NCBI RefSeq assembly: GCF_020097815.1
Contig: NZ_CP083665.1
Location: 1 to 48,463, forward strand
Source of the DNA: Haloprofundus salinisoli
Lineage (GTDB): Archaea > Halobacteriota > Halobacteria > Halobacteriales > Haloferacaceae
Direction: 5' to 3'
DNA: 48,463 nucleotides
Shown: positions 15,545 through 36,959 of the stretch, one piece after another
How positions within the stretch are numbered: the first letter of the stretch is position 1
How the letters are laid out: each line of letters begins with the position of its first letter
The notes under the pieces: generated by a model
Told to the model about the DNA's origin: nothing
Database searches by the model: none
Seen by the model: only the letters and a program-made list of their open reading frames with translations
Position numbers and translations under genes: made by a program

Positions 15545-15623
15545 CTAGAGTTTCCCTCGATTTTCGGCTCACGACGCTTCTCAACGCCGACCTACTCAGA
15601 CCGAGTGAGGGAATACGCGACGC

Positions 15624-15632
15624 ATAACAAAG
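15624..15632 (+). promoter_or_regulatory. Cluster promoter element ATAACAAAG before the 15664 gene
   Basis: An exact copy of the nine-base element, 31 bases before the ATG at 15664. The position suits the BRE/TATA region of a message with a very short leader. Confidence 0.7.
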
Positions 15633-15663
15633 CGCGTATCCGGTATGTCTCCGTGTAGTAGCA

Positions 15664-17244
15664 ATGCATTCTGACTCAACGACGCGAGCGTTCGTGCTCG
15701 GACTCGACGGCGTCCCGTGGGGGATGCTTCAGTCGTGGATAGACGACGGGCATCTGCCTAACTTCAAGCGTCTCGCAGACGAGGGTGCGTCCGGTTCGCT
15801 TCAGAGTACTCGCCCGGCGTCGACGCCGCTGGCGTGGCCTTCCATTGCGACCGGCGTCTGGCCGGACAAACACGGTCTCTACGACTTCCAGCGACTCATG
15901 GAGGACTATCGCCGCGAGATGTACACGAGTTCGGATCTCTCGCGCCCGACGCTCTGGGAGATGCTGTCGCCGTCTATCGTGGCGAACGTGCCGATGACCT
16001 ACCCCGCCACCGACATCGACGGCAAGATGGTCACCGGAATGCTCACGCCCGATTTCAACGACCGATTCACGAGTCCGAAGTCGCTCTCGGAGGAAATCCA
16101 GGAGGAGATCCCCGACTACATCATCGGGATGCGGTACGCGGACTACCACGACCGGAAAGACGAGTTCCCCGCCGCCATCGAGAACCTCGCTACCCAGCGC
16201 CGCAAACTACTCTCGAAACTGATGACGGAGGAAGACTGGCGACTGTTCTTCTTCGTCTTCACCGCACCCGACCGGCTCCAACATCTCATCTGGGACGAGG
16301 AGACGCTGCTGGCGCACTACCGCCTGCTCGACACGATTCTCGGCGACGTGCTTCGCTACGTCGAGGAGCGCGGAGCGAACCTCTACGTGGTCTCCGACCA
16401 CGGTTTCGGCCCCATCGACCAGTACGCCTGCGCGAACACGCTGCTCGAACGGGAAGGGTTCCTCGTCCGAAAGCAGGACAAAAAGCGCGGCGCGCTCCAG
16501 CGTTTCGGCCTGACGAAACAACGCATCGAGGAGACGCTCGGCGCGGTCAACCTCGACATCGACACCGTCGCCCGACACCTGCCGGACCGGTTCGTCGACT
16601 CCGTCGCCGACCAGGTTCCGGGCGACCACGCGCTGTACGACGCGGACTTCTCGAAGACCGAAGCGTTCGTCCACGGCTCCGGCCACGTGTTCGTCAACGC
16701 CGAAGACCGGTTCGACGAGGGCATCGTCCCGCGCGAGCGCGTCCCCGAGGTCAAAGCTCGCCTGATGGAGCTGTTCGAGAGCTATACGGACCCCAAAACC
16801 GGCGACCCCGTGTTCGAGGTGTTCGACGGCGACGACATCTACGACGACGACGAACACTCCGCCGACATCGTCCTGGAGGGCCGGCCCGGCTACGAGGTCC
16901 GCGCCTCGCTCACTGAGGACGTCTGCATCGACAGCGGCCAGCTCAAGGCGTCCCACCGTCCCGAGGGAATCTTCTTCGCGTGGGGCGACGACGTGGCCGC
17001 CGGCGCGTCGGTCGACGGCGCGACCGTCGTCGACGTAGCGCCGACGCTCCTGCACGCGCTCGGCGAACCGGTCCCCGAGGACACCGACGGCCGCGTCCTG
17101 CTCGAAGCGTTCGACGACGACTCAGAGACGGCCGCCCGGTCCGTCGAGTACGGCCCCTACGGCGAGGTCGGCCGCGGCGAAGCCGAGGAAGAGGACTTCT
17201 CCGGCGTCGAGGACCGGCTGAAAGGTCTCGGCTACATGGAGTAG
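15664..17244 (+). CDS. Alkaline-phosphatase-fold phosphodiesterase or phosphatase (first copy)
   Basis: A 526-residue protein of the type I phosphodiesterase/nucleotide pyrophosphatase group. The first metal Asp lies in LGLDGVP (Asp15), a Thr/Ser nucleophile is expected in STPLAWPS, and further ligands are in TAPDRLQH and SDHGFG. No signal peptide is present, so it acts in the cytoplasm. A paralogue (558 residues) is at 23096, where it overlaps a flippase. Both end in the same kind of tail (RLKGLGYME, RLEDLGYL). Such proteins recur in archaeal glycan clusters; a role in processing polyprenyl- or nucleotide-linked sugars is plausible but unproven. It has its own promoter element. Confidence 0.85.
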   Translation: MHSDSTTRAFVLGLDGVPWGMLQSWIDDGHLPNFKRLADEGASGSLQSTRPASTPLAWPSIATGVWPDKHGLYDFQRLMEDYRREMYTSSDLSRPTLWEMLSPSIVANVPMTYPATDIDGKMVTGMLTPDFNDRFTSPKSLSEEIQEEIPDYIIGMRYADYHDRKDEFPAAIENLATQRRKLLSKLMTEEDWRLFFFVFTAPDRLQHLIWDEETLLAHYRLLDTILGDVLRYVEERGANLYVVSDHGFGPIDQYACANTLLEREGFLVRKQDKKRGALQRFGLTKQRIEETLGAVNLDIDTVARHLPDRFVDSVADQVPGDHALYDADFSKTEAFVHGSGHVFVNAEDRFDEGIVPRERVPEVKARLMELFESYTDPKTGDPVFEVFDGDDIYDDDEHSADIVLEGRPGYEVRASLTEDVCIDSGQLKASHRPEGIFFAWGDDVAAGASVDGATVVDVAPTLLHALGEPVPEDTDGRVLLEAFDDDSETAARSVEYGPYGEVGRGEAEEEDFSGVEDRLKGLGYME

Positions 17245-17324
17245 CCGAACACGAACGACCTTTCGACTTCACGACGGACGACAATCAGGTCATTACAATA
17301 CCGGTCGTCCCCGATTTTCGGCTC

Positions 17325-18149
17325 GTGCCCACCGAACTACGCGCCTCCGACATCGCATCGTTTCTCGGCGCGAGCCTCGACGGCAACGACGTGTCCGTCT
17401 CCGGCGTCGAGTCGCTGTACGACGCGACGGCCGAGGATTTCGCTTTCTCCCGGTACGACGACCCCGAGGAACTCGCTCGCTCCGCCGCCGGACTGCTCAT
17501 CTGCCCGGAGTCGACGCCCGAACTCGACCGCGCGCTCATCCGCCACCCGGACCCGAAACTCGGCTTCGTGAAGGCCGCCCGCGAGTTCTTCGCCGACCCG
17601 ATAGAAGAGACCACCATCCACCCGAGCGCCGTCGTCGAAGACGGCGCGGAACTCGGCGACCGGTGTTACGTCGGCGCGCAGGCGTACATCGGCGACGCCG
17701 TGACGCTCGGCGACGACTGCCGAATCCACGCCGGAACGACCCTGGGCGAACCCGGATTCGGGTTCGCCCGCGACGAGACCGACCGACCGCTCCGACAACC
17801 CCACCTCGGCGAAATCGTCATCGGCGACGACGTCGAAATCGGCGCGAACAGCAGCGTCGATCGCGCCGCGTTCTCGGAGACGGTCATCGGTGACGGCTCC
17901 GTCCTCAGCGCGCAGGTTCACATCGCACATCAGGTCTTCGTCGGCGAGAACGTCTCCATGGCGTACGGCGCCGGCGTCTCCGGTAGCACCGAAATCGGCG
18001 ACCGGGTGGTCGTCCAGCCGCACGTCGCCGTCGCCGGTCACCTCACCGTCGGCGACGACGCCGAGTTGGGTATCGGTTCGACCGTCCTCGACGACGTCGA
18101 CGCGGGAACGACCGTCGTCGGGTCGCCCGCCCGGCCGATACGGCGATAG
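17325..18149 (+). CDS. LpxD-like N-acyltransferase (left-handed beta-helix)
   Basis: The open frame is longer, but the part before 17325 runs antisense-like through the preceding gene. The GTG at 17325 is the first start codon after that gene's stop and gives a 274-residue protein. Residues 1-95 match the uridine-binding N-terminal domain of LpxD (VSGVESLYDAT, HPDPKLGFVKAA). A left-handed beta-helix of hexapeptide repeats follows, with the LpxD segment PGFGFARDE and a catalytic-type His202 in VHIAHQVFVG. It is shorter than bacterial LpxD (about 340) and lacks its C-terminal helices, which contact acyl carrier protein. Archaea make no lipid A, so acyl-CoA-dependent N-acylation of a UDP-amino sugar is the likely reaction. 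Confidence 0.87.
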   Translation: MPTELRASDIASFLGASLDGNDVSVSGVESLYDATAEDFAFSRYDDPEELARSAAGLLICPESTPELDRALIRHPDPKLGFVKAAREFFADPIEETTIHPSAVVEDGAELGDRCYVGAQAYIGDAVTLGDDCRIHAGTTLGEPGFGFARDETDRPLRQPHLGEIVIGDDVEIGANSSVDRAAFSETVIGDGSVLSAQVHIAHQVFVGENVSMAYGAGVSGSTEIGDRVVVQPHVAVAGHLTVGDDAELGIGSTVLDDVDAGTTVVGSPARPIRR

Positions 18150-18190
18150 CTCTCCTCACGGCGATTCGACCTCGAAAAGCTCGTTTTCGC

Positions 18191-19144
18191 TCAGGCCGTC
18201 TGGGTGACCTTTCGTCCGTTCTTGGCGAGGACCTCCTCGTACACCTCGTAGATGTGGTCGGCCATCTGCTCGATGCCGATGCGCTTGGCCTCTTCGCGTC
18301 CGTTCGACCGCTCGTTTCGTTCGAGCACTCGAACCAGATTCTCGACGAGTTCCTCGTCGGAGTCACAGACGAAGGACGGGTCGACCTCCGCGAGTCGTTC
18401 GGGAACGTCACCGACGCGCGTCGCCACGACCGGCAGATTACACGCCAGCGACTCCTTGACGACGTTCGGCGACCCCTCTCGCTTCGACGTGAGAAGAAGC
18501 GAATCGGACGCGTTCATGTACACCGCGACGCGGGGGTGCGGGAGGCCACTGATCGTGTGGAGTTCGATCGGTTTCGACATCTGATCGCGAGCGGCTTCGA
18601 CCACGCGCTCGGCGCGCGGGTAGTCCTTCACCGTTCGCTCGGGGGAGTACGGGAACAACACGTGGTACTTGTCGTCGTCCCACCCGAGCTCCGCTTGCGC
18701 TTCCGCCTGCGGCGTCGGGCTGAACCGCTCCAGGTCGACGCCGTGGGGAATGACCGAACACTCCTGTCCGAGCGACTCCTTCATCTCCTCGGACATCACG
18801 ATGACGGCGTCGCAGAACCGGGCGGACGTCTTGCTCACCGCCCGGTAAGAGCCTTCGAGGTCCGACCCCCACAGCGACAGCACGACCGGTAGTCGCGGCT
18901 GTGAGAGCGCCATCGGCGCGGTGAGGCCGTAGTTCGCGTGAATCAGGTCGTACTCACCGAGCGACTGGCGGATGACCTGCGGGAAGAACCGCAGGTAGTC
19001 GGCCGCTGTTCGCGGGGACCCGGCGTGGTGTTTACCCGGAACGGAGAGAGTCGTACAGGTTACTCCGTGCGACTCCTCGAGCGCCCGGACCTGTAGTCGG
19101 TAGAATCTTGCGTCGGCGTTGGTAGTCAGGTTGAGAACGTGCAT
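18191..19144 (-). CDS. Family 4 glycosyltransferase
   Basis: A 317-residue GT-B-fold retaining glycosyltransferase. The C-terminal half shows the donor-binding EX7E motif (Glu223 to Glu231 in REGSPNVVKESLACNLPVVATRVGD). The N-terminal acceptor domain carries LWGSDL and VIPHGVDLERF, typical of GT4. It is cytoplasmic with no membrane segment. It is somewhat short for GT4 (usually 350-400), the N-terminal domain being compact. It is transcribed divergently from the DUF354 gene at 19325, and each of the two has its own copy of the ATAACAAAG element in the 180-base gap. The sugar donor is unknown. Confidence 0.92.
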   Translation of the reverse strand: MHVLNLTTNADARFYRLQVRALEESHGVTCTTLSVPGKHHAGSPRTAADYLRFFPQVIRQSLGEYDLIHANYGLTAPMALSQPRLPVVLSLWGSDLEGSYRAVSKTSARFCDAVIVMSEEMKESLGQECSVIPHGVDLERFSPTPQAEAQAELGWDDDKYHVLFPYSPERTVKDYPRAERVVEAARDQMSKPIELHTISGLPHPRVAVYMNASDSLLLTSKREGSPNVVKESLACNLPVVATRVGDVPERLAEVDPSFVCDSDEELVENLVRVLERNERSNGREEAKRIGIEQMADHIYEVYEEVLAKNGRKVTQTA

Positions 19145-19184
19145 ACGACGATGGTGCTACTAACGGGTGTAGTCTATCGTCGGG

Positions 19185-19193
19185 CTTTGTTAT
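19185..19193 (-). promoter_or_regulatory. Cluster promoter element ATAACAAAG before the GT4 gene
   Basis: An exact copy on the minus strand, 40 bases before the ATG at 19144. It forms a back-to-back pair with the copy at 19289-19297, each pointing to its own gene. Confidence 0.68.
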
Positions 19194-19288
19194 CCACACC
19201 CTGATTGACCGCCCGTGGTGAGGGTTCGCTCACTTCCGAAATCGGTAGACGGAGCGGAGTTCGTCCCGCACTCATCGGTAGACAGGCC

Positions 19289-19297
19289 ATAACAAAG
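19289..19297 (+). promoter_or_regulatory. Cluster promoter element ATAACAAAG before the DUF354 gene
   Basis: An exact copy, 27 bases before the ATG at 19325. It is the copy closest to a leaderless TATA spacing. Confidence 0.7.
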
Positions 19298-19324
19298 GCC
19301 GGATGAGGTTATTCTACGAGCGGG

Positions 19325-20440
19325 ATGAGGTATCTAATATTCACGAACACTCCGGCCCACGTTCACGTGTACAAGAACGTGGTCCGGCGACTGGAGGACC
19401 GTGGACACGAGGTCCACATTCTGGCGCGTGACTACACGTGCACCAAGGACCTCCTCGAGTACTACGACCTCCCGTTCGAGATATACGGCCACCACGACAC
19501 GGCGGCGTATTCGAACACCGGGATGGCTCAGGAACTGGCGACGCAACTGCTCAAGATTCCGGTTTCGGCCAAGCGATTCGACCCCGACGTCGTCGTCGGT
19601 CTCGGCGCGTACGCCGCCTACGCGGGGACGCTCCTTCGCGCAGAGACGATTCTCCTCCGCGACTCCGCTCCCGGGACGCTGCTGCCGAAACTCGCCAGCA
19701 AGTTCGCGGACGTGGTGCTTACACCCGACGTGTACGGCCTCGACCTCGGACCGAACCACTACACGTTCCCCGGTCTGAAGGAGTGCGCGTACCTCCACCC
19801 CGACGTGTTCGAATCGGACACGAGCGTCCGCGAGGAGCTCGGCGTCGGGTCCGACGAACGTTTCGTCATGCTTCGCTTCAACTCGTTCGACGCGATGCAC
19901 GACGCCGGGAAGAAAGGGTTCTCACTCGAAGACCGCCGCAAACTCATCGAACACCTCTCCGAGCAGGCGACGGTGCTCGTCTCCGACGAGGGCGACAACA
20001 TGGACTTCGACGACCTTCCGGCGCGACCGTACGACATCCACCCCGCGCGGATGCACGACGCGCTCGCGGAGGCGTCGCTGCTCATCGCCGACACGGGGAC
20101 GATGGTCACCGAAGCGTCGCTGCTCGGCACGCCGGCGATTCGGTCGAGCGCGTTCGTCGACCAGGAGTTCGGCGAGTTCGCCGAACTCGAACGCCACGGC
20201 CTCATCGACAACATCACCGACTTCGACGCCGTCGTCGAGCGAGCGGACGAACTGCTCGTCGACGAGAGCGTCCCCGCGCTCTGGCAGGAGCGTCGCCGGA
20301 CGTTCATGGACGAGCGGGTGAATCTCACCGAGCTCATCGTCGACGTCGTGACCGATCCGCGGGCGGTCAGCAGAAACGCCTCGCTGACTCGCTACAGTGA
20401 ACGAAAGAACGTCGAACAGACCGACGCAACCCCGCTGTAA
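19325..20440 (+). CDS. DUF354-family GT-B-like protein
   Basis: A 371-residue protein of the archaeal DUF354 group, whose fold resembles UDP-GlcNAc 2-epimerases and GT-B glycosyltransferases. The N-terminus (RYLIFTNTPAHVHVYKNVVRRL) gives the typical nucleotide-sugar domain with the family's H-V-H motif. A Gly-rich segment, ADTGTMVTEASLLGTPAIR (about residues 257-275), is the expected UDP-sugar-binding loop. It has no membrane segment. The GT2 gene begins two bases after its stop codon, so the two are co-expressed. It could make or transfer an amino sugar such as ManNAc; the family has no firm assignment that I can apply. Confidence 0.86.
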   Translation: MRYLIFTNTPAHVHVYKNVVRRLEDRGHEVHILARDYTCTKDLLEYYDLPFEIYGHHDTAAYSNTGMAQELATQLLKIPVSAKRFDPDVVVGLGAYAAYAGTLLRAETILLRDSAPGTLLPKLASKFADVVLTPDVYGLDLGPNHYTFPGLKECAYLHPDVFESDTSVREELGVGSDERFVMLRFNSFDAMHDAGKKGFSLEDRRKLIEHLSEQATVLVSDEGDNMDFDDLPARPYDIHPARMHDALAEASLLIADTGTMVTEASLLGTPAIRSSAFVDQEFGEFAELERHGLIDNITDFDAVVERADELLVDESVPALWQERRRTFMDERVNLTELIVDVVTDPRAVSRNASLTRYSERKNVEQTDATPL

Positions 20441-20441
20441 G

Positions 20442-21443
20442 ATGTACGAAGGAAAGACAATCGGCGCCGTGATACCGGCGTACAACGAAGAGAAGTTCAT
20501 CGGCGAAGTCATCGAGACTCTCCCCGAGTTCGTCGACAGAGCGTACGTAATCGATGACGGCTCGAGTGACGACACGTGGAACGCCATCCGTCGCGCCGCC
20601 GAAACAGTCAACGAGGGCTGGGACGCGCCCGCCCCCCGCGCGGACGGCGGCATCGGCTTCGACCGCCGCGTCGTCCCTATCCAACACGAGGAGAACCGCG
20701 GCGTCGGCGGCGCGATCAAGACCGGCTACCAGCACGCGCTGACCGACCACGTCGACGTGACGACGGTTATCAGCGGCGACGGCCAGACCGAACCCGACAT
20801 CGTCGAACGCATCATCCGGCCCGTCGCGCTCGGTGACGCCGACTACTCGAAGGGCAATCGCCTGCGAGGGCGCGCCCGGGAGGACATGCCGAAGTTCCGG
20901 CAGGTGGGTAACTTCGTGCTCTCGCTGCTGACGAAGATCGCCAGCGGCTACTGGAAACTGATGGACCCGCAGAACGGGTCGACGGCTATCTCCTACGCCG
21001 CGCTCGACGAAGTCAACCTCGACTCGTTGTACGAGGATTACGGCTTCGCGAACGACTTACTCGTCCGGCTCAACGTCCACGGAATGGTCGTCGCGGACGT
21101 CTCCCGCCGCGCGGTGTATAAAGACGAAGTCAGCCACATCAAGTACCAGGAGTTCATCCCGAAGGCGTCGGTGCTGCTGCTGCGCGATTTCCTCTGGCGA
21201 CTCCGTGCGAAGTATCTCGTGAAGGACTTCCACCCGCTGCCGCTCTTCTACTACTTCGGCGCGGCCGCGGCGGCGCTCGGCGCTGGATCGGCGGCCCGCA
21301 AACTGTTCAAGCACGAAGACAGCGTGCCCTCGGTGCTGCTGTTTTTCGTCGGATGGCTGTTCATGCTGTTCGCGATGGTGTTCGACCTCCACGAGAACGA
21401 CGACCTGCAGGTCATCGTCCACGACCCCCACGAGTTCGACTGA
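20442..21443 (+). CDS. Family 2 glycosyltransferase, dolichol-phosphate-sugar synthase-like
   Basis: The open frame extends to 20397, but the ATG at 20442 follows the previous stop with one base between and gives a typical GT2 start, so I choose it (333 residues). The GT-A domain shows VIPAYNEE, VIDDGSSDDT and SGDGQTEPD, where Asp113 takes the DXD role. Two hydrophobic segments at about 265-285 and 296-317 anchor the C-terminus in the membrane. This is the layout of enzymes that charge dolichyl phosphate with a sugar, which could feed the GT-C-like protein at 13721. It is the last gene of the rightward block and converges on the flippase at 21579. Confidence 0.9.
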   Translation: MYEGKTIGAVIPAYNEEKFIGEVIETLPEFVDRAYVIDDGSSDDTWNAIRRAAETVNEGWDAPAPRADGGIGFDRRVVPIQHEENRGVGGAIKTGYQHALTDHVDVTTVISGDGQTEPDIVERIIRPVALGDADYSKGNRLRGRAREDMPKFRQVGNFVLSLLTKIASGYWKLMDPQNGSTAISYAALDEVNLDSLYEDYGFANDLLVRLNVHGMVVADVSRRAVYKDEVSHIKYQEFIPKASVLLLRDFLWRLRAKYLVKDFHPLPLFYYFGAAAAALGAGSAARKLFKHEDSVPSVLLFFVGWLFMLFAMVFDLHENDDLQVIVHDPHEFD

Positions 21444-21578
21444 CTCCCTCGTCCCACTCTTTCGTCCGACCTCCGATTTGTCAACCGCTGATCTTCCTCG
21501 TTGACTACTCCCGATTCCGTCGCTACTCGACCGATTGGACTCGATCTGTGGCCGGCTCTCAGGAAATAGATGGTCCGG

Positions 21579-23096
21579 TCAGGTGGGGAAGTACCGGCGG
21601 ACCAGCGGGATACGGACGCCGAGCAGGTCTTCGATGAACTCGACGACGATCAGATCCTCTTCCTGCAGTGCGCCGCCGACGGCTACGACGGCGATACCGA
21701 GCAGTCCGACGACGACGAGGAACGGCAGCAGCGTCAACGTCGAGAGCGAAACCCAGTTTGATAGCACCAGCGCGGGCGGAATCAGCGCGAGAGGTAGCAG
21801 CACGAACGTTCTGACGGACTCGTCGGAAAACGGCGTGATGCCGAAGCGGAGTTTGAGGATTCCGCAGACGATGACGTGAACGATCGCCATCGAAACCGCG
21901 GAGGTGACTGCCGCACCCTCCATCCCGTACTGCGGAATCAACACGAGGTTCACGAGGAAATTGAAGACGAACCCGGCGACGTTGCCGACGAGGATGTAGT
22001 TCGTCTCGCCGAGTGCCGACAGCGTCTCGCGGTCTCGACCCACCGCGGCGCTCAGGAAGAACCCGATGGAAACGATGATGAGCGCCAGGGCGGCCGGTTC
22101 GTACGACGCGCCGAAGATTATCCGGAGGATGTCTCGCGGGAACACGACGAACGTCAGAAAGGCGGGGAACGTCACGATGTACACCCACTTCGTCGTCGTC
22201 TGGTAGATGGTGCCGACTTCGTCGCGCTGGCCGTCGGAGTCGAGTCTGGACGCGAGCGGCAAGTAGAGAAATCCGAACGCCGACAGGACGACCAACATGC
22301 CGGTTCCGAGCGTGTACGCCGCGCTGTACAGTCCGGCTTCCTCCGACGCGCGGAAGTAGCCCAACATGAGCGTGTCCGTCTGCGTCAGCATCGTCGACAT
22401 CACCGTCGAGATGACAAGCGGCGCGGAGAACGCGAGCATCTCGCGGGTATGCGTCTCGAACGGTCCTCGAAGCGTCATCAACCGACTCAGCAGGACGTGT
22501 GACAGGACGAACGCGGCTATCGCCGCGGCGAGGTACGCGTACCCGACTACGACGATGCCGTAACCCGCGGAGAGCAGTGCGAATATGAGGACGATCCGAC
22601 CGACCGGGTAGAGGAGGTCCTGAACGTACGTCTTGTAAATCGTGTTCTCGTGTCCGCGAATCGCGCCGACGCCGATCTGCATCCCGACGACGAACGGGAC
22701 GGCGACAGCGAACAGTTGCACCAGTCTGACGGAGTCCGCTTCGTCGAGCAGATTCTCCGTGAGAAAGCCCGCTGAAGCGAACACCGCCGCACCCGCGACG
22801 ACCCCGACCAAGCCGGCGAAGACGATGCCGCTCACCCACACCCCGCGGCGTTGCTCGTCGCTCTCGTAGCGCGAGAGATACCGGGGGACGCCCTGCGTGA
22901 AACCGACGAGCGACAACGTCGTCACGAACGTCAACATCGCGAGTCCAATGCTCACTTCGCCGTAATCGGCCGGAGAGAGCACCCGACCGATGATCACGCG
23001 CTCGGCTAGCCGTCCCGTCGCACCGACGAGTCCGCCGACGATAACGAGCGACGCACTCGACAGTAACGACTTCAGTTCTTCGCCCGAAGCGGCCAT
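21579..23096 (-). CDS. Wzx-type polysaccharide flippase (first copy)
   Basis: A 505-residue integral membrane protein of the MATE/MVF superfamily with about 14 predicted helices. The N-terminal segment LLSSASLVIVGGLVGATGRLAERVIIGR is nearly the same in the flippase at 24957, so the two are paralogues. Such proteins move lipid-linked oligosaccharides to the outer face. Its start codon overlaps the last base of the stop codon of the phosphatase-fold gene at 23096, so the two are translated together. The presence of two flippases suggests two lipid-linked substrates. Confidence 0.92.
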   Translation of the reverse strand: MAASGEELKSLLSSASLVIVGGLVGATGRLAERVIIGRVLSPADYGEVSIGLAMLTFVTTLSLVGFTQGVPRYLSRYESDEQRRGVWVSGIVFAGLVGVVAGAAVFASAGFLTENLLDEADSVRLVQLFAVAVPFVVGMQIGVGAIRGHENTIYKTYVQDLLYPVGRIVLIFALLSAGYGIVVVGYAYLAAAIAAFVLSHVLLSRLMTLRGPFETHTREMLAFSAPLVISTVMSTMLTQTDTLMLGYFRASEEAGLYSAAYTLGTGMLVVLSAFGFLYLPLASRLDSDGQRDEVGTIYQTTTKWVYIVTFPAFLTFVVFPRDILRIIFGASYEPAALALIIVSIGFFLSAAVGRDRETLSALGETNYILVGNVAGFVFNFLVNLVLIPQYGMEGAAVTSAVSMAIVHVIVCGILKLRFGITPFSDESVRTFVLLPLALIPPALVLSNWVSLSTLTLLPFLVVVGLLGIAVVAVGGALQEEDLIVVEFIEDLLGVRIPLVRRYFPT

Positions 23097-24772
23097 CAGA
23101 GATATCCGAGGTCTTCGAGACGTTCGGTCACTTCCTCCTCACCGCCGGCATCGATCTGTTCTGTCCCGTACGGGACGTCTCTGTACGTTCGGACCGACGG
23201 CGAAAACGAGAGCAGGCCCTCCGGAACCGACCCGGTCATCCGGTCGGGAATGTCGAATCCGGCGAGAGCCATACAGACGGGTGCGACGTCGGTCAACGAC
23301 ATCGTCTCTGGCGCTGGGCCCTCGAATGCGGGGCCCGCACCGAGGAAGACGCCGTTCTGTTTGTGGTCGTAGACGTCGACCGAGAGAAACGGTGGGTCGT
23401 ACACCTTCACCGAGAGTTGGTGGTTCATCTCCCGCGGGAGGAACAGTATATCGGGCGCTTTGTCGGCGTACTCCCCTTGATACACCTCTTCGCGTCGTTT
23501 CACGAAGTCGAACGCGGGGTTTCCGTCGGGTGTCTCCAGATCGGAGAGCAGTTCGATCAGGTCTGTCCGTACGTCTTCGTACTCCGACTCCGGAACGACG
23601 CCGTCGGGTTCTCTCCCTTCGAGGTTAATTCGGACTCCGAGGCGAGTTCCGCTCTGCAGATAGGCTTTCGAGGCACGCCAGTCGACGTGTTTGCCCGCGG
23701 CGTTACGGATTTCGTCCGGCGTAATCGACATGAGCGCCGACTCGACCCCGAACCGCTTCGCCGTCTCGTACACTCTCGTCGGTGAGATGCCGACCTTCTG
23801 GAGCACCGTCCCAGCGGACCCGAACAGGCGAGTGCGTACCGACTCGTCACCCGCCGTTTCCGCTTTCTCGTCTGCGGACGACTCACCGGTGAGATCGGTC
23901 TTGATTGTGCTGAGCGACTCCTGTTTCCCCTGGTTGGTCGTCTCCACGTATCCGTGCTGTCGGAGTATCTCGTTGAGGTAGATCCGGTACCCCGTCGTCG
24001 GTCCGATGCCGTGGTCCGAGCAGACGACGACGTTCGTCGACTCGTCGACGGCGTCTAGGACCGCACCCGCGAGCTCGTCGGCGGCCGCGTACACCTTCCG
24101 CTGGGCGGTCTCCTCGTCGAAGTTGTGAAACACCGCGTCGGTCTTCTGGACCTGTATCACGGCCAGCTCCCAGTCGTACGTCTCCATGAGCGAGAGTGCG
24201 GCGCGTTTTCGAAGGTCGATGAGTTCGAGATAGCCGGCGAGTTTCTTCTCTTTGTCCGACGAGGTCTCTCCGCGCGAGTAGATTGTGTACTCCTCACCGA
24301 GCGACGCAGACAACGCTTCGCGGACGTCGCCGGGGAATCCGGCTGTGTCCTCGGTCGCGAGATATCCCGGGATGAGAGCGCCGCGAATCGGGTCTGCCGG
24401 GTGTGTGACGGGGACGTTCAAGACGAGAGACGGGACTCCTTCGGCATCGAGGTAGTTCCAGAGCGCTGGCCTCCGTACGTCGTTTCGAGTGACGACGGTG
24501 CCGTCGTCTGGATAGCCGTCGTAATCGAAGAATCCGTAGATACCGTGATGACTGGGGTCGGTGCCGGTGTACATCGAGGGCCACGCGCTTCCGGTCCACG
24601 GCGGGAACGTCGACGCGAGCGACGATTCGACCCCGCGTTCTCTAAGCGCCGAGAGGTTCGGCGTGTCGTCGGCGAACGCGTCTAAGTAGCGAAAGTCGAG
24701 CGCGTCGAATCCGAGTACGATTGTCTTCCCGCTCCGCTCTGTCGCCCCTGGTTCGTGAGGTGTCCGATCCAT
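23096..24772 (-). CDS. Alkaline-phosphatase-fold phosphodiesterase or phosphatase (second copy)
   Basis: A 558-residue paralogue of the protein at 15664. Metal and nucleophile motifs are intact: LGFDALDFRYL, FPPWTGSAWPSMYTG, QKTDAVFHNF and SDHGIG. A variable insert (about residues 265-320), rich in Ser, Glu and Asp, distinguishes it. There is no export signal. Its stop codon overlaps the start of a flippase by one base, so the partnership with lipid-linked sugar export is physical in the operon. Release or recycling of a lipid or nucleotide phosphate is a reasonable guess. The 184-base AT-rich gap upstream (24773-24956) probably holds its own promoter, since no ATAACAAAG copy is present there. 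Confidence 0.86.
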   Translation of the reverse strand: MDRTPHEPGATERSGKTIVLGFDALDFRYLDAFADDTPNLSALRERGVESSLASTFPPWTGSAWPSMYTGTDPSHHGIYGFFDYDGYPDDGTVVTRNDVRRPALWNYLDAEGVPSLVLNVPVTHPADPIRGALIPGYLATEDTAGFPGDVREALSASLGEEYTIYSRGETSSDKEKKLAGYLELIDLRKRAALSLMETYDWELAVIQVQKTDAVFHNFDEETAQRKVYAAADELAGAVLDAVDESTNVVVCSDHGIGPTTGYRIYLNEILRQHGYVETTNQGKQESLSTIKTDLTGESSADEKAETAGDESVRTRLFGSAGTVLQKVGISPTRVYETAKRFGVESALMSITPDEIRNAAGKHVDWRASKAYLQSGTRLGVRINLEGREPDGVVPESEYEDVRTDLIELLSDLETPDGNPAFDFVKRREEVYQGEYADKAPDILFLPREMNHQLSVKVYDPPFLSVDVYDHKQNGVFLGAGPAFEGPAPETMSLTDVAPVCMALAGFDIPDRMTGSVPEGLLSFSPSVRTYRDVPYGTEQIDAGGEEEVTERLEDLGYL

Positions 24773-24956: not shown

Positions 24957-26486
24957 CTACGAGGCGAAGTACCGGCGGACGAACGGAATCTGCCGTCCGA
25001 GTCGGTCCTCGAAGAACTCGATGACGAACAGGTCTTCCTCCTGTAGCGCGCCGACTGCAACGACGACGACGATTCCGAGCAGTCCGATGGTGACGAGAAA
25101 CGGAAACAGCGTCACTAGCGACGGCGAGAAGTCGGTGTACCGCTCGAACGCGAATCCCAGGGGCAACAGCAGCAGCGGGACGAAGACGAACGTCCGGACG
25201 TTCGCCGGGGACATCGGCGTGATGTCGAACTTCATCTTCAACACCAGTACGACGATTCCGTTCAGTACCGCAAGCGAGACTGCGGAGGCGATACCGGCAC
25301 CGACGAAGCCGTACATTGGAATCAGGGTGACGTTGAGCGCGAAGTTCACGGCGAACGCGGTGGAGTTCGACACGAGGATGAACTTCGTCTCACCGAGCGC
25401 CGATAGCGTCTCGCGGTTGCGACCGACCATCGCGCTGGTGAAGAATCCGAGCGCGAGGATGGGCAGCACCTGCGCCGCCGGGAGGTAGTCGCTGTTGAAG
25501 ACGATCTGCAGCACGTCGCCGGGGAAGATGACGAACGTGAAAAACGCCGGGAACGTGAGGATGTAGATCCACTTCGTCGTCGTCGAGTAGATGGTGTCTA
25601 TCTCCTCGTGGTTGCCGTCGGCGTCGAGCCGCGACGCCATCGGGAGCATGATGAATCCGAAGCCCGAGAGCGCGACCAACATCCCCGACGCGAGCGTGTA
25701 CGCCGCCCCGTACTGCCCCGTCTGGAAGGAGGTCGTGAAGTACCCGAGCATGATGTTGTCCATCTGGATGATGAGGATGGACATCACGGTCGAGACGATG
25801 AGCGGCGCGGAGAACGCGAGCATCTTCTTGTTGTGCGTCCTGAACGACCCCCGAAGCGAGATCAGCCGGTTGAGGAGCACGTGGGCCACGACGAACGCCA
25901 GGACGGCGGAGACGAGGTAGGCGTACCCGACGGTGAGAAGCCCACCACCGAGTCCGAAGAGGAACACGGCGATGAGTCCGATACGCGTCAACGGATACGT
26001 CAGATCCTGTACGTACGTCTTGTAGATGGTGTTCTCGTACCCGCGAATCGCACCGACGGCGACCTGCATCCCGACGACGAAGGGGATAGTCAGCCCGAAG
26101 AGTCGCAACAGCGTGACGGCCTGCTCTCCGCTATCGAAGAACCACTCCGCTAGCTGCTCGGCGAAGACGGTGACGCTGACCGTCGCGAGGAGGGCGAGCG
26201 CACCGGTGAGTATCATCCCGCCGACCCAGAGGCCGCGCCGGTCGGCGTCGTCGTCGTATCTGGACAGATATCGGGGAATCGCCTGCGTGAAACCGACGAG
26301 CGACAGCGTCGTCGCGAACGTCATCACGGCGAACCCGATATTCATCTCACCGTAGGCGTCGGGCGCGAGCGCCCGTCCGACGATGATCCGCTCGAAGAGT
26401 TTTCCCGCCGACCCGACGAGGCCGCCGACGATGACGAGGCTGGCGCTCGACAACAGCGTCTTGAGTTCGCCACCCTTGTCGACCAT
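24957..26486 (-). CDS. Wzx-type polysaccharide flippase (second copy)
   Basis: A 509-residue paralogue of the flippase at 21579, with about 14 membrane helices and the same N-terminal and C-terminal segments (IPFVRRYFAS here, IPLVRRYFPT there). It lies 73 bases downstream of the FemAB-like gene and is probably transcribed with it from the promoter element at 27605. Two clearly diverged but complete copies argue for two export substrates or for a recent expansion of a tandem set. Confidence 0.92.
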   Translation of the reverse strand: MVDKGGELKTLLSSASLVIVGGLVGSAGKLFERIIVGRALAPDAYGEMNIGFAVMTFATTLSLVGFTQAIPRYLSRYDDDADRRGLWVGGMILTGALALLATVSVTVFAEQLAEWFFDSGEQAVTLLRLFGLTIPFVVGMQVAVGAIRGYENTIYKTYVQDLTYPLTRIGLIAVFLFGLGGGLLTVGYAYLVSAVLAFVVAHVLLNRLISLRGSFRTHNKKMLAFSAPLIVSTVMSILIIQMDNIMLGYFTTSFQTGQYGAAYTLASGMLVALSGFGFIMLPMASRLDADGNHEEIDTIYSTTTKWIYILTFPAFFTFVIFPGDVLQIVFNSDYLPAAQVLPILALGFFTSAMVGRNRETLSALGETKFILVSNSTAFAVNFALNVTLIPMYGFVGAGIASAVSLAVLNGIVVLVLKMKFDITPMSPANVRTFVFVPLLLLPLGFAFERYTDFSPSLVTLFPFLVTIGLLGIVVVVAVGALQEEDLFVIEFFEDRLGRQIPFVRRYFAS

Positions 26487-26559
26487 TACGGCTGCTCCGT
26501 ATTCGACTCGCGGTGCTGTACCGCACTACTCGGTCGTAGACCGTACCCGTTGGAGACCA

Positions 26560-27576
26560 TTATCCGTTGATGAGACTGTATGCTTTCTTCGCCATCTCCA
26601 TGCTCGCACCCGACGATTCGACCGTGTAGTAGGGGACGAGTTCGGCCCCGAACTTCGCTTTGTAGCGGCAGAGGCGTTCGGTGTTCGCGCCCATGAGGTC
26701 GTAGGCGGTGACCGAGTCGATGGGCGCGTTGCCTTCGGCGATATCCTGGATGATACGCCAGTGGATCAGGCTGTTGACCGTCGTTCCGTCGTACTCGCTG
26801 ATCGTCCCGCCCTGCCAGAAGTACGCCATGTCGTTGGAGTACAGCGCGGTGATGCCGCTGAGGTACTCGCCGTCGGGGGTCCGAGCGAGGTACACCCGAC
26901 ACCGGTCGGTCTCGGAGAGCGAGTTCGTGAGGTCGCGGACGTACGGCCACGACAGTTGGTACTGTTCTCCCTGTTCCTCGTAGCGGGATTTCGCGTCCTC
27001 GTACACCAGTTTCGCGCCCTCGGACGCCGGGACCGACTCGATGGTCACGTCGGTGTCGTCGGCGTCCCGAATTTCGCGCCGAAGGCTCTTGCTGAACGAG
27101 CTCAGCAAGTCGTCCGTACTCGTGCCCTCCGTGTCGAGCACGTAGGTGAAGTAGGGGTCGACGCGCATCTCGTTCCACGAGTACGGCCGCGGGTCGGGGT
27201 AGTCGGTGCCGCAGACCATCCGGAAGAAACTGAGAGAGGCGTCCAGATCCAGATCGTCGAGCACCTCCTTCGTGAACTCGCGGTTGACGCGTTCGCGCTT
27301 GCGTCGCTTCGGGCTCGGCGACATCATTATCGGACCGAGCCGGGGAACGCCCATCGAGGGCGGTGGCGAGAACACGGCGGTCCCGACCGACCGGCGGCGG
27401 ACGACGAGCGGGAGGAGGGCGATCGCTTGCTCTCCTTTGAACCCACCGTAGAGCCGAAGTTCACCGGGTGCGTGCTCGCGGAGGACTTTCAGCGCTTCCG
27501 ACGTGTGGAAGACCTCGAAACCAGAGGACGGCAGCGCGTTATCCCACGCTGTCAAGTCGAGCCGTTCAACTCTCAT
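26560..27576 (-). CDS. FemAB/GNAT-type acyltransferase
   Basis: A 338-residue protein with two GNAT-like domains. It resembles FemAB/BioF2-type transferases, which add aminoacyl or other acyl groups to cell-wall or glycan precursors. Features include the segment FSKSLRREIRDA (about residues 158-170) and the C-terminal domain with YFWQGGTISEYDGT and IHWRIIQDIAE. It has no signal or membrane segment. It lies between a deacetylase and a flippase in the glycan region and starts a transcription unit with its own ATAACAAAG element. It may add an amino acid to a sugar amine, which would fit the ATP-grasp gene at 33547. The donor and acceptor are unknown. Confidence 0.8.
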   Translation of the reverse strand: MRVERLDLTAWDNALPSSGFEVFHTSEALKVLREHAPGELRLYGGFKGEQAIALLPLVVRRRSVGTAVFSPPPSMGVPRLGPIMMSPSPKRRKRERVNREFTKEVLDDLDLDASLSFFRMVCGTDYPDPRPYSWNEMRVDPYFTYVLDTEGTSTDDLLSSFSKSLRREIRDADDTDVTIESVPASEGAKLVYEDAKSRYEEQGEQYQLSWPYVRDLTNSLSETDRCRVYLARTPDGEYLSGITALYSNDMAYFWQGGTISEYDGTTVNSLIHWRIIQDIAEGNAPIDSVTAYDLMGANTERLCRYKAKFGAELVPYYTVESSGASMEMAKKAYSLING

Positions 27577-27604
27577 TGTTGACTCCGAAAAGGGACGTTC
27601 AACC

Positions 27605-27613
27605 CTTTGTTAT
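27605..27613 (-). promoter_or_regulatory. Cluster promoter element ATAACAAAG before the FemAB-like gene
   Basis: An exact copy on the minus strand, 28 bases before the ATG at 27576. A 6-base inverted repeat (AAAGGG at 27589-27594, CCCTTT at 27603-27608) overlaps it and could mark an operator. Confidence 0.7.
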
Positions 27614-27678
27614 CCGCCGCATACCTCGACGCAGTACCGTGGTTGTTGCCAGCTACCGACGCACCACAGAGAAGAGAA

Positions 27679-28563: not shown

Positions 28564-28587
28564 GTCGTGTATCTGGTTAGTAGCGAA

Positions 28588-32679: not shown

Positions 32680-33004
32680 GAATGACGTAGTGTAACCTCG
32701 ACCGGGCGTCAGTCTCCCAGTCCGTCCAGTTGCAACCCTCACCTGATGGTGTCGTAGCTTTGTTATTCACAGCCTGATGGGAGAGTATGTGCCAGTTTAC
32801 CAATTTTCGCCACCTAGTCCTGTGCAATTATTCACAGACGATACGATAGAACGGAGCGGCAACCAAATTACAGCGAACGGCAACTACAGACCATCTGAAC
32901 GTTAGCCAGCGGATAGTAAAGTGGGGATAGTGTGGATGAATAAGATATGTACTGCCAGCCCAGCCGAATCGTAGACGGAGTGAGCTCATGGCCTCACGCG
33001 AGGG
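32680..33004. other. Divergent promoter region between the Wbp-like operon and a regulator gene
   Basis: The minus-strand element at 32758-32766 serves the sugar operon. On the plus strand the regulator at 33005 is preceded by an AT-containing stretch near 32930-32950, but I see no strong TATA box. There are no further open frames with protein-like composition. Confidence 0.5.
32758..32766 (-). promoter_or_regulatory. Cluster promoter element ATAACAAAG before the Wbp-like operon
   Basis: An exact copy, 78 bases before the preferred start at 32679 and 15 before an alternative start at 32742. The spacing is longer than for most other copies, so this operon may have a leader or a slightly different start. 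Confidence 0.62.
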
Positions 33005-33535
33005 ATGACTAGCGCGCCGTCCGGTGGACTCACGCAGGGTGAGTTGTTCGACACGCTCTGCAACCAGCGTCGGCTCGGCATTATCCGTCACCTTCGGGCC
33101 AACGGCGGTGCCTCGGAGCTGAGTCCTCTCGTCGATCACGTCGCTGCCGCCGAAAACGACAAGCAACCAGACGAACTCGCCCGCGCGGAGCGCCGGCGCG
33201 TCTACATCTCGCTGTATCAGACGCATCTGCCGATGCTCGAAGAGCGCGGAATCATCGAGTGGGACCGTTCGGACAACGTCGTCTCGCTTCGGCCAAGCAG
33301 CAACGTCGAGAAGTATCTCGGGCACGGAGCCGAGAGTAAAGCTCCCTGGCACGTCGGATACCTTCTCGCGAGCGTCTTCGGGATGGGGCTGTTGCTGTTG
33401 CAGATACTTCGCATCGCACCGTTCGACGGATTCTCTCTCTCGTGGACTCTCGCTGTGGTGAGTGCTACCGTTCTCGGCGTCGTCGTCACCCGGTACGCGC
33501 TCGAACGGCCGCCACGGACACCGATAACACCCTGA
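33005..33535 (+). CDS. Membrane-anchored winged-helix regulator, DUF7344 type (paralogue 2)
   Basis: A 176-residue paralogue of the genes at 5612, 39080 and 45868. The winged helix (about residues 10-110) holds RRRVYISLYQTHLPMLEERGII, and two hydrophobic segments lie at about 120-165. It starts a unit with the ATP-grasp gene, whose likely GTG start is 11 bases after its stop. It sits just upstream of the Wbp-like operon on the other strand, so it is a good candidate for sensing or controlling glycan synthesis. That role is inferred. Confidence 0.84.
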   Translation: MTSAPSGGLTQGELFDTLCNQRRLGIIRHLRANGGASELSPLVDHVAAAENDKQPDELARAERRRVYISLYQTHLPMLEERGIIEWDRSDNVVSLRPSSNVEKYLGHGAESKAPWHVGYLLASVFGMGLLLLQILRIAPFDGFSLSWTLAVVSATVLGVVVTRYALERPPRTPITP

Positions 33536-33546
33536 GGCAAGAAGTT

Positions 33547-34812: not shown

Positions 34813-35373
34813 CGACGAACCGAGTCGAAACCGCGGCAGACCGGGAGCGCCGTCCCACAACCAGAGCAGAAACGCCGTCCCGAGGAGACTCAGTTCTAAG
34901 AGAATGTACACGACGCCCTCGGGACTGGCGAGCGTCTCCAGGTAGTTTCCGAGGTAGTAGAAGAAGTTGCTAAAGAGGCCGGCACGCGACGGTGTGGACG
35001 TCTCGTACAGCGGCCAGAGCAGAAACGAGAACGACGGGCTACCGCCGTAGGCGACATCCGAGACGCCGTCACCGAGGAGGTGCGAAAGATAGCCGACGAG
35101 AAACGGTATCCACAGGCGTTTGAATCCGGTCCAGCGACCGACGAGGTACGCCGCCAACGTGACCGGGGGGACGAAGAACGCCGAGTGAGCCAGCGAGACG
35201 CCGCTCGGAAGCAGCTCGAACGTCCACGCCAACGGTTTGTCTATGATATCGGGGAGCTGCGTTGCGACCGCGACAGCCAGCGCCGCAGGAGTGGTGACGC
35301 CCCGACGCGTAACGAGTCGGTGTGCGACCGAGTACAGGATGTAGCCGAACGCGAGATGCTCCCACGGCCACAT
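34792..35373 (-). CDS. Membrane-bound YdjM/DUF457-type putative metal hydrolase
   Basis: A 193-residue polytopic protein, choosing the Met at 35373 (MWPWEHLAFGYI), the usual start of this family, over one six codons upstream. It has about five hydrophobic segments with conserved polar residues: H near the start (WEHLAFGY), DIID, AHS and SHLLGDGVSD. This pattern is that of the DUF457/YdjM group of membrane hydrolases. It converges on the ATP-grasp gene, overlapping its end by 21 bases. Its function is unknown; the family often sits near surface-glycan genes in haloarchaea. Confidence 0.8.
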   Translation of the reverse strand: MWPWEHLAFGYILYSVAHRLVTRRGVTTPAALAVAVATQLPDIIDKPLAWTFELLPSGVSLAHSAFFVPPVTLAAYLVGRWTGFKRLWIPFLVGYLSHLLGDGVSDVAYGGSPSFSFLLWPLYETSTPSRAGLFSNFFYYLGNYLETLASPEGVVYILLELSLLGTAFLLWLWDGAPGLPRFRLGSSLPHRNR

Positions 35374-35460
35374 CTCATCGACACCTCGCACTGGTGCCCA
35401 CAGGCGGGTGCAGACGGAAGCCGAAGGGAGTCACGTCGAACGTCGTCGATACGGGCGTCG

Positions 35461-36462
35461 TCAGGGTGCGGTTACGGTGATCCATATGTGGAGGGCGTCG
35501 TCGGCGTTCTGGGCGCGGGGGTCGGCCGGGGGTTCTCCTTCGTACAGGAGGTACTGAACTCTGAGGTCCTCGCCGGTCATCGAGGGGGCGAGGGAGTGCT
35601 TGTGTCGCCACGTCCCACCGTCGCCGACGCTACGCGAGAAACGGGTAAGTTCCTGTCGCTCGACGACCTGTTCACCGTCCATCCGTTGTAGTTGGACGAC
35701 GACGGAGTAGTTCGTCTGTTCGCCTTCGTTGTTCTCGATGCTCGTCGCCATCGGAATCGCGGTTCCCTGCGTCACCTCCGAGGGGAACCCTGCCGACGAG
35801 AACGTCCCGTTTTCGTCCTGCGTGAGCAGCGAGAAGTCGGTGAACCCACCGCCGGCCGGTGGGGCAGCGAGTGCGAACGCCATGCTGCTGGCGGCGGCGA
35901 GGACGCCGAGGACCAGCAAGACGTTGACTGCCGTGACGGCGGTGCCGCCGTTCGAGAGGCGGCGACGGAAGCGGGCGTAACCGACGGTGAACGACGGGTT
36001 GTACCGCTCCTCGACGGAGAGCCGGTAGCGACGGACGACGCCCACGAGCGAGAACAGCGTCACGAAGAGGCCGAACGCGCCGAGCACCGACTGGAGCGTG
36101 ATCCCCCACACCGACGCGCCAAGGCCGAGAACGAGCAGCGGCCCGATTACCAGGCTCAAACCGAACGAGAGCGCCAGACGCTCACCGCCGGTGACACCGT
36201 GAACGAGCGGCTCGCGCACGTTCGACCACGACCGGTTGGTCTTCTCGGCCGCTCGGTGCGGGAACAGCGCCGCTACCAGCGCGTACCCGGGAAGGAACAA
36301 CAGGAGTGGAAGTCCGAGGAGCAGTCGGACGAATCCCACAGACGGCGGAACGAACAGCGCTGCGAGTACACCTCCGCCGGCCAGCAGCAACGCTGCGAAG
36401 ATGTCAGTTGGGAGCAACTGTTCGGTAGAGAGCTGTGTCGATGTCTTAGTTTCTGATTTCAT
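35461..36462 (-). CDS. DUF1616-type membrane protein
   Basis: A 333-residue protein with four or five membrane segments in its N-terminal 190 residues, followed by a C-terminal domain of about 130 residues with a beta-rich look (YSVVVQLQRMDGEQVVERQEL) that should face outside. The layout matches the archaeal DUF1616 group, which is common in S-layer and polysaccharide clusters. Its biochemical role is not known. A copy of the promoter element (ATAACAAAA) lies 69 bases before the ATG. Confidence 0.8.
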   Translation of the reverse strand: MKSETKTSTQLSTEQLLPTDIFAALLLAGGGVLAALFVPPSVGFVRLLLGLPLLLFLPGYALVAALFPHRAAEKTNRSWSNVREPLVHGVTGGERLALSFGLSLVIGPLLVLGLGASVWGITLQSVLGAFGLFVTLFSLVGVVRRYRLSVEERYNPSFTVGYARFRRRLSNGGTAVTAVNVLLVLGVLAAASSMAFALAAPPAGGGFTDFSLLTQDENGTFSSAGFPSEVTQGTAIPMATSIENNEGEQTNYSVVVQLQRMDGEQVVERQELTRFSRSVGDGGTWRHKHSLAPSMTGEDLRVQYLLYEGEPPADPRAQNADDALHIWITVTAP

Positions 36463-36531
36463 ATTGCCCGTCGTACACTCGAATTCGGCCGTGGTTCGCG
36501 ACTAATCAGCTGTACAGAGCCTCGCTTCGGG

Positions 36532-36540
36532 TTTTGTTAT
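36532..36540 (-). promoter_or_regulatory. Cluster promoter element (ATAACAAAA) before the DUF1616 gene
   Basis: Eight of nine bases match the consensus. It is 69 bases from the start codon, further than most copies, so a 5' leader would be needed. Confidence 0.55.
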
Positions 36541-36577
36541 GCCGCGGTTACCTCCGGCTACGCGATCGCGCGAACGC

Positions 36578-36859
36578 TCACTCCTGGAACGAGAAGTACT
36601 TCTCTTCCCACTCGCGGCGTTTTCGCATCGCTTCCTCGCCGCGTTCGGTGAGCGCGTAGTAGTTCGTCCGTCTGTCGAGCTGGCCTTTCTCGACGAGATC
36701 TTTATTGACGAGCGTGTCCAGATTCGGATACAGTCGTCCGTGGTTGATCTCGGTGTCGTAGTACTGCTCGAGTTCGTCTTTCACCTGCTGGCCGGACGGT
36801 CTGTCGTACCCGCTGATGACGTACAGCAGGTCTCGTTGGAATCCACTCAAGTAATGCAT
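36578..36859 (-). CDS. PadR-family transcriptional regulator
   Basis: A 93-residue PadR-type winged-helix protein. The domain (FQRDLLYVISGYDRPSGQQVKDELEQYYDTEINHGRLYPNLDTLVNKDLVEKG, about residues 7-59) is intact, and the C-terminal helix is short, as in PadR subfamily proteins. PadR proteins are dimeric repressors. It has its own copy of the promoter element, so it may be part of the same regulon and feed back on it. Confidence 0.9.
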   Translation of the reverse strand: MHYLSGFQRDLLYVISGYDRPSGQQVKDELEQYYDTEINHGRLYPNLDTLVNKDLVEKGQLDRRTNYYALTERGEEAMRKRREWEEKYFSFQE

Positions 36860-36894
36860 CTGTACATTCTGATAGACCGTTCAATGGACTGGGT

Positions 36895-36903
36895 ATTTGT
36901 TAT
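36895..36903 (-). promoter_or_regulatory. Cluster promoter element (ATAACAAAT) before the padR-like gene
   Basis: Eight of nine bases match the consensus, 35 bases before the ATG at 36859. It is the easternmost copy. Confidence 0.62.
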
Positions 36904-36959
36904 CCATATCATAAACAACAGTACCCTTCGATTTCTCCCGCTCGAACCGCTGAAGCCGG

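Follow-up and report, generated by a model that had tools for sequence, protein, structure and literature searches.

A probable bipartite promoter element of surface-glycan genes in Haloprofundus salinisoli and other haloarchaea

The haloarchaeal basal promoter, as far as the available excerpts of the source go, has a TATA box of the form TTWT, a transcription factor B recognition element CGAAA and an A/T pair, WW, at -10 (PMC4983044). Here we discuss an element on a 48,463-bp stretch of Haloprofundus salinisoli DNA, which was analysed whole and is referred to as the window. The element has the eight-base core ATAACAAA, in its longer form the nine-base word ATAACAAAG, and is most likely a conserved bipartite promoter element of a haloarchaeal surface-glycan regulon. 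It resembles the canonical promoter in standing at the same expected place relative to the start codons of leaderless messages and in what may be a weak A/T preference at -10, but ATAACAAAG matches neither TTWT nor CGAAA, has a C in the middle and is accompanied by a second conserved A one turn upstream, and the first-pass annotation of this DNA was right to say that it is not a normal haloarchaeal TATA box. About 25-30 nucleotides (nt) before the start, where a TTWT box would be looked for, the element promoters have ATAACAAAG instead.

Three other systems offer partial parallels, again on the excerpts available. The EarA-dependent fla promoter of Methanococcus maripaludis is a weak core promoter that needs a winged-helix activator (PMC5512572, PMC13286277), but there one operon is concerned, whereas here a nearly invariant core word is spread over many operons and the candidate activator is membrane-anchored. 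The CsmR regulon of Haloferax volcanii has an Lrp/AsnC-like haloarchaeal regulator with sites beside the TATA box and cell-shape genes among its targets, but its site is the semi-palindrome TATCA(N4)TGATA (PMC13286277) and the present element is asymmetric, with no palindrome seen by eye in its core. That semi-palindrome is not present, as judged by eye, in the element or its conserved flanks, and CsmR was rejected as the regulator. In Halobacterium NRC-1, with its multiple TATA-binding proteins (TBP) and transcription factors B (TFB), promoter classes have been proposed to be served by different general factors, but no such word is given in the part of the source available (PMC2121645), and the linkage of the present element to TFB genes is inconsistent. 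Literature searches for the element word gave matches on Deinococcus and Clostridioides and, by the titles listed, none on haloarchaea, and no paper on DUF7344 was found, most subscription papers being outside the scope of these searches. The titles and abstract openings seen on haloarchaeal exopolysaccharide, PadR and alternative promoters had no such element, and those of the literature searched named no regulator of archaeal sugar-coat operons. To our knowledge the coordination of such operons is largely unknown.

The core ATAACAAA occurs seven times in the window, at 15624 (+), 19186-19193 (-), 19289 (+), 27606-27613 (-), 32759-32766 (-), 36533-36540 (-) and 36896-36903 (-), all as first reported, where 0.12 copies are expected and no more than one was seen in any of 100 dinucleotide shuffles; the earlier estimate was of less than one copy by chance. 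The host genome has 21 copies, seven on this replicon (1.4% of the bases) and 14 in the other 3.373 Mb, and given the latter the Poisson chance of at least seven on the replicon is 2e-9. By gene calls from a codon-score script trained on the window genes, all seven lie outside called genes and are oriented toward the next gene, as had been claimed. Five match ATAACAAAG and the other two end in A (36540) and T (36903). From the first base of the element to the start codon there are 40, 36, 37, 49 and 44 nt for five copies, which agrees with the 27-40 nt first given when the count is made from the end of the nine-base word; two lie farther off, at 78 nt (DUF1616 gene) and 87 nt (acyltransferase gene, if its ATG is used, there being an upstream GTG at 24). 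The copies at 19193 and 19289 are indeed a divergent pair, as first described, and the pair is kept in the same-genus genomes G001, G003 and G004 (genomes are cited by our own numbers) and in G021. However the claim that the element marks the whole glycan cluster was overstated, because several genes of the replicon, among them those at 11018 (-) and 38409 (+), have ordinary AT-rich boxes instead, as judged by eye.

The element was at first described as a single word. The core word is real, but an upstream half, consisting of A at -9 and a base other than G (H) at -10, had been overlooked, as had the degenerate copies treated below. Without exception the window copies have A at -9 and lack G at -10, and five of the seven have G at +8; among the 14 copies elsewhere in the host genome A at -9 is present in 6 and G at +8 in 4, with both in 1. 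In other haloarchaeal families, too, glycan genes are preceded by the two-part form HA-N8-ATAACAAA(G), the strand-oriented 19-bp pattern being HA-N8-ATAACAAAG. A logo was made from 124 sites, reduced to 99 by removal of near-identical ones; as only exact ATAACAAA sites were included its columns 0-7 are invariant by construction, and it is the other columns that are informative. In these 99 sites there is A at -9 in 88, H at -10 in 95 (G in 4), G at +8 in 81, C at +9 in 62, A/T at +22 in 79 and A or G at +33 in 82, with a weak A/T preference at -20 and -30 and nearly flat columns otherwise; there is no second TATA-like or A/T-rich box in the logo.

Some further features were noticed in the acyltransferase promoters (loci L112-L160). 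Many have a GTAG-N7-CTAC-like inverted pair about 17-33 bp upstream of the element, at some one and two turns of the helix above the -10/-9 step; the pair is weak in the general logo (columns -31, -30 and -20 in acyltransferase-operon promoters). In many the stretch between the element and the acyltransferase operon also looks conserved, for example ...ctgcccacgcgggtatcg..., and a small CCC/GGG hairpin is possible near the presumed 5' end.

Copy number and distance to genes set the element apart from words of the same letters. In the loci used for discovery 30 copies are 31-45 nt before a gene called by the same codon-score script, and in the held-out loci described below 69, against 0-1 and 0-7 for four same-letter control words, the highest control count being that of AATAACAA, which overlaps the element. 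The control words are also rarer, with 1-27 copies in the discovery loci and 3-24 in the held-out loci. The start codon is 30-44 nt from the first base of the element in 50 of 119 sites with a downstream open reading frame (ORF), a set not reduced for relatedness (4 of 123 had no such ORF) and in which the longest ORF was chosen, so that single distances may be wrong.

A scan of related genomes, which had been proposed as a check, found that in several haloarchaeal families the element precedes glycan genes, at a preferred distance from the start codon. When 60 relatives were scanned for ATAACAAAG, some had their copies clustered on a single contig: all 8 are within 54 kb in G022 and 7 of 8 within 28 kb in G056, and one contig holds 6 of 9 in G010 and 6 of 12 in G021. 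Divergent pairs are present in G010, G021 and G051. Other genomes have no surplus over the reversed control, for example G009 with 21 copies against 38. For gene comparison 40 stretches were taken, mostly around element clusters, and the genes downstream of the elements are often homologous to the glycan genes of the window. In the family that we number f17 a refined form of the word gave 37 copies against 6 control matches in G051, 38 against 12 in G088 and 35 against 4 in G097. The G051 copies are spread over the genome, before PKD-domain surface proteins, DUF7344 genes and glycan genes. The genes that follow elements in G051 include those for four PKD-domain surface proteins, malectin-, FG-GAP- and PQQ-repeat proteins, a glmS homologue, a DUF1616 protein, two phosphodiesterases, a hexapeptide protein and a FemAB/GNAT protein, as assigned in part by a comparison of 34 proteins, 27 from G051 and 7 from the window, and by a renewed domain scan of ten of the G051 proteins; some G051 elements have no convincing gene after them. 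As copies in G051 also precede PKD-domain surface proteins and DUF7344 genes, the term glycan cluster is too narrow. The first suggestion, of a special promoter or activator site that makes one regulon, is supported by the number of copies, their distance to genes and their recurrence before glycan genes, the role itself being conjectural, but the site is bipartite and the regulon is wider than the cluster.

In our judgement the element is almost certainly functional as a cis element, and a promoter role is likely. Our preferred reading, to which we give a probability of about 0.6, is that it serves, at the expected TATA position, as an activator-dependent core promoter of surface-glycan operons, which would be switched by the membrane-bound DUF7344 protein encoded divergently at 33005-33535 (+). 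This protein, DUF7344b, matches PF24035 at 33047-33286 with 83.4 bits (cut-off 27.8). An AlphaFold2 model (mean predicted local distance difference test score, pLDDT, 79; predicted template-modelling score, pTM, 0.54) has a winged helix, with helices at residues 11-19, 21-32, 39-51 and 60-80 and strands at 84-87 and 92-95, and beyond it two long helices in hydrophobic stretches, 115-134 and 145-167, which are the two predicted C-terminal membrane helices. The weaker fold matches (E above 0.001) include TubR and ArsR-type and MarR-type proteins, and no solved structure was matched by sequence at E values up to 1.

DUF7344 is a conserved neighbour of the element, which under this reading it would bind. 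Among regulator-like families in the cluster loci DUF7344 (34 proteins) is present in 15 of 21 genomes, PadR in 11 and the helix-turn-helix protein of 36960 in 8. In 12 of the 21 genomes examined by gene calls a DUF7344 gene and an element face away from each other, and G012 has such a pair too; in the divergent arrangement the element is 174-335 bp before the DUF7344 start, and in G055 PadR is on the other side. A held-out set was assembled from named loci found solely by similarity to the DUF7344b type, 76 remaining of 80 after the four from discovery genomes were dropped. An exact element aimed away from the DUF7344 gene is present within 500 bp in 70 of the 76, and none has it in the other orientation; 55 permuted eight-base words gave a mean of 0.4 and a maximum of 15, and of the other 500-bp segments of the same loci 5.5% have the element. 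All 70 of these divergent elements have A at -9 and none has G at -10. The gene opposite is an acyltransferase or DegT homologue in 60 of the 76 loci and glmS in 3 more, with none of these in 13. The six misses include one with an exact copy just past 500 bp and one with a one-mismatch copy; the remaining loci are from two Halorubrum, a Halorarius and one Haloarculaceae, three of them without any copy at two mismatches or fewer and one with a two-mismatch copy. In G051, G088 and G097, 11 of 91 DUF7344 genes tested are within 700 bp of an element where 1.2 are expected, the element being upstream in the same direction in 8 and divergent in 3 (29 of 30 G051 places were used, a short fragment being left out, the rows for G056 and G000 were unused, and distances are to the start of the matched domain). 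In a same-genus genome a DUF7344b gene is present near both ends (4135-4659 and 57724-58248) of the 60,800-bp contig G001:C5 with identical score, which is likely to be an assembly overlap of a circular replicon.

Several observations weigh against this reading. Summed over the 99 genomes there are just 761 copies of the refined word against 451 of its reversed control, and many genomes thus have no excess. The copies are unevenly spread between coding and intergenic DNA, contrary to the equal frequency named at the outset as a sign against the element (of the distinct copies, 113 of 117 in the discovery loci and 219 of 227 in the held-out loci are intergenic, about 75% of the DNA being called coding), but the intergenic share alone is weak evidence because the AT-rich control words are mostly intergenic too, AATAACAA in 27 of 27 and 24 of 24 cases and ATACAAAA in 6 of 6 and 6 of 7. 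Many sites are 60-200 nt from the chosen start codon and would therefore need a leader. The held-out loci are related to each other, 69 sites reducing to 15 non-redundant ones, and most bear genus names that we take to be those of Natrialbaceae. A Foldseek search of the DUF7344b model against PDB gave no match at E < 0.001. DUF7344 is a large family, with 34 matches in the host genome and members in 94 of 99 genomes, so that a neighbouring member may be there as a passenger or a target. There are 18 DUF7344 matches in G029 and 17 in G072, and neither has a refined element. At the level of whole genomes, the 16 with a DUF7344 relative of at least 210 bits have 276 elements against 52 in the reversed control and the other 83 have 485 against 399 (Mann-Whitney p 7e-9), but this association is inflated by relatedness and by construction of the query, and there is some circularity in it, as the ten rows of the query alignment came from clusters picked for the element; moreover 13 genomes with no relative at that level still show an excess of at least 6. 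Lastly the difference in f17 between DUF7344 (11 of 91 near elements) and TFB (0 of 26) is not significant (Fisher p 0.12).

The way in which such a promoter might work can be outlined. If a message with a short leader or none starts at the +33 purine, ATAACAAAG would cover about -33 to -25 and the upstream A would be at -42, with the A/T at +22 acting as the -10/-11 element; the base preferences at +22 and +33 would fit a canonical WW and a purine start. As a TATA box ATAACAAAG is poor, and TBP and TFB would therefore be expected to need help there. The helper protein would contact the -10/-9 step one helical turn upstream, and at the acyltransferase promoters would also touch the A/T steps near -20 and -30. 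DUF7344 may be this helper and report an envelope signal through its membrane helices, by which means sugar synthesis, flippases and surface proteins would be switched on together.

We regard DUF7344 as the best candidate for the presumed activator and a dedicated TFB as its main rival. According to this alternative the element is recognised directly by a TFB, either alone or together with a special TBP, giving an alternative core promoter akin to that of an alternative sigma factor, and in Haloprofundus the factor would be the TFB of the replicon itself, encoded at 2602-3522 (-) with two PF00382 repeats. The element does occupy the place expected for the recognition element and TATA box, the host has seven two-repeat TFB genes of which this is one, TFB genes are on or beside element clusters in G021, G041 and G056, and one in G040 (G040:C2 262971-264037) has an element about 122 nt before its start codon. 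However the linkage, present in G000, G021, G040, G041 and G056, is absent in G022, G051, G010, G012 and G055, with no TFB listed within 30 kb of the element clusters in these five, and none of 26 TFB genes is within 700 bp of an element in G051, G088 and G097. The -10/-9 step is also upstream of the expected contact of TFB with DNA, which counts against direct recognition, and overall we consider it unlikely.

Less probable still is that the element is an ordinary site for another activator, unnamed or the PadR-like protein (PF03551) encoded at 36578-36859 (-), and overlaps a weak standard promoter. The A/T steps phased at about one turn do resemble activator contacts, and PadR homologues have the element in their own promoters in seven genomes (that of the window and G001, G003, G004, G010, G041 and G055). 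Against this, there is no PadR in the cluster stretches taken from G022, G012, G040, G051 and G056, and none near an element among the nine PadR matches listed for three element-rich genomes. PadR relatives are present in 94 of 99 genomes, including ones free of the element, and PadR was rejected as a diagnostic regulator on that account.

We think it very improbable that the element works in the messenger RNA leader, on translation or stability, and not at the promoter. In the window the start codon is no more than 50 nt away for five of the seven copies, as this would have it, but other copies are 60-200 nt away and yet keep A/T at +22 and a purine at +33 in fixed relation to the element, and most haloarchaeal messages are leaderless, the figure for Haloferax volcanii being 72% in the part of the source available (PMC4983044). 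That the copies are non-functional remnants of a duplicated repeat or mobile sequence is scarcely credible, for while duplication can spread short identical words, the flanks here are unrelated between copies whereas positions -10/-9, 0 to +9 and +22 are kept, as are orientation and distance to genes across families.

A stronger version of the preferred reading, that of an activator-dependent promoter switched by DUF7344, would be that haloarchaea have a second kind of core promoter, in which the TATA box gives way, throughout a glycocalyx regulon, to the non-TATA word ATAACAAAG with its upstream half-site, and which opens only through the action of a membrane-anchored winged-helix protein. 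We put this forward tentatively and at less than even odds. Should the core word really stand in for the TATA box, archaea would have a promoter class beside the TATA-dependent one, and if the whole is true it would be an equivalent, in archaea, of envelope-sensing one-component or extracytoplasmic control. The element names DUF7344 as a candidate regulator family for the archaeal sugar coat, and being short, nearly invariant and family-spanning it predicts regulon members from sequence and suggests corrections of start codons, such as that at 12861 discussed below.

With regard to the individual promoters, the seven copies could between them drive 17 genes, provided that neighbours in the same direction share a transcript. 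The extended elements are given from -12 to +8. That at 15612-15632 (+), with exact ATAACAAAG, TA at -10/-9 and ATG at +40, is the predicted promoter of a phosphodiesterase-like gene (15664-17244) and an acyltransferase-like gene (17325-18149). The divergent pair consists of 19185-19205 (-), with exact ATAACAAAG, CA at -10/-9 and ATG at +49, predicted to serve a glycosyltransferase gene (18191-19144), and 19277-19297 (+), with exact ATAACAAAG, TA and ATG at +36, predicted to serve a DUF354 glycosyltransferase-like gene (19325-20440) and a GT2 gene (20442-21443). The element at 27605-27625 (-), again exact with TA and with ATG at +37, is the predicted promoter of a FemAB/GNAT gene (26560-27576), behind which there are, in the same direction, genes for a flippase (24957-26486), a phosphodiesterase (23096-24772) and a second flippase (21579-23096). 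At 32758-32778 (-) an exact ATAACAAAG with CA at -10/-9, divergent from the DUF7344 gene, is the predicted promoter of a run of acyltransferase, DegT, MocA and UDP-sugar dehydrogenase genes from 32679 to 27679. The last two, both with TA at -10/-9, are 36532-36552 (-), which has ATAACAAAA and ATG at +78 and is the predicted promoter of a DUF1616 membrane protein gene (35461-36462), and 36895-36915 (-), which has ATAACAAAT and ATG at +44 and is that of the PadR-like gene.

The window is the complete third contig of a genome of three (3,017,014, 356,276 and 48,463 bp). The nearest plasmid records are a plasmid of Haloprofundus halobius (49,319 bp) and one of Haloprofundus sp. MHR1, and Haloprofundus marisrubri is a same-genus relative carrying a 48,708-bp contig; from these matches the replicon would be a Haloprofundus glycan plasmid. 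It encodes ParA, Cdc6 and TFB, and its glycan genes, which span about 3.6-44 kb, are for GlmS, a phosphoglucomutase-like protein, two phosphodiesterase-like proteins, glycosyltransferases, two flippases, hexapeptide acyltransferase-like proteins, a DegT aminotransferase (so named from the family comparison and the annotation of related plasmids), a MocA oxidoreductase, a UDP-sugar dehydrogenase, FemAB/GNAT and DUF1616 proteins, an epimerase, and PKD or beta-helix surface proteins.

For degenerate copies a matrix was built from sites outside the window and its scores compared with those in 8 Markov-simulated sequences (maxima 9.4-15.1); six of the seven exact window copies score 22-26 and the T-ended one 17.3. 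Three degenerate copies are above all simulated maxima. ATACCAAAG at 44341-44349 (-), with score 18.8, is 33 nt before the ATG of the epimerase gene (43402-44316), a homologue of which in G056 has an exact core 32 nt upstream. ATAACAATG at 12886-12894 (-), with score 16.0, overlaps the listed ATG of a beta-helix/pectate-lyase-like gene (11293-12888). As this copy, at 12894, sits 33 nt before GTG 12861, the apparent ATG at 12888 is predicted to be part of the promoter, which suggests that the real start is more likely the GTG, 33 nt downstream of the element; the G021 homologue has ATAACAAAA 33 nt before its GTG. The third, ATAACGAAG at 2446-2454 (-) beside the TFB gene, with score 16.1, has no called gene downstream, just a very short ORF.

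Four further possible copies are within the simulated range and rest on position, same-genus alignments and homologues only. ATAACAATG at 6401-6409 (+), with score 14.9, is 149 nt before glmS (6550-8370), and there are exact copies 159-206 nt before glmS in G040, G051 and G056, the gap suggesting that glmS may have a long 5' leader. ATTCCAAAG at 12953-12961 (+), with score 11.0, is 35 nt before the gene at 12988-13686 and unchanged in two same-genus loci, the third alignment stopping short. TTAACAATG at 13683-13691 (+), with score 9.9, is 38 nt before the gene at 13721-15544 and unchanged in three same-genus loci, and exact cores stand before the homologues, at 38 nt in G022 and at 34 nt in G018. 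ATAACAATC at 42236-42244 (-), with score 13.3, is before a PKD-domain surface protein gene (39895-42180) and is kept in one same-genus locus.

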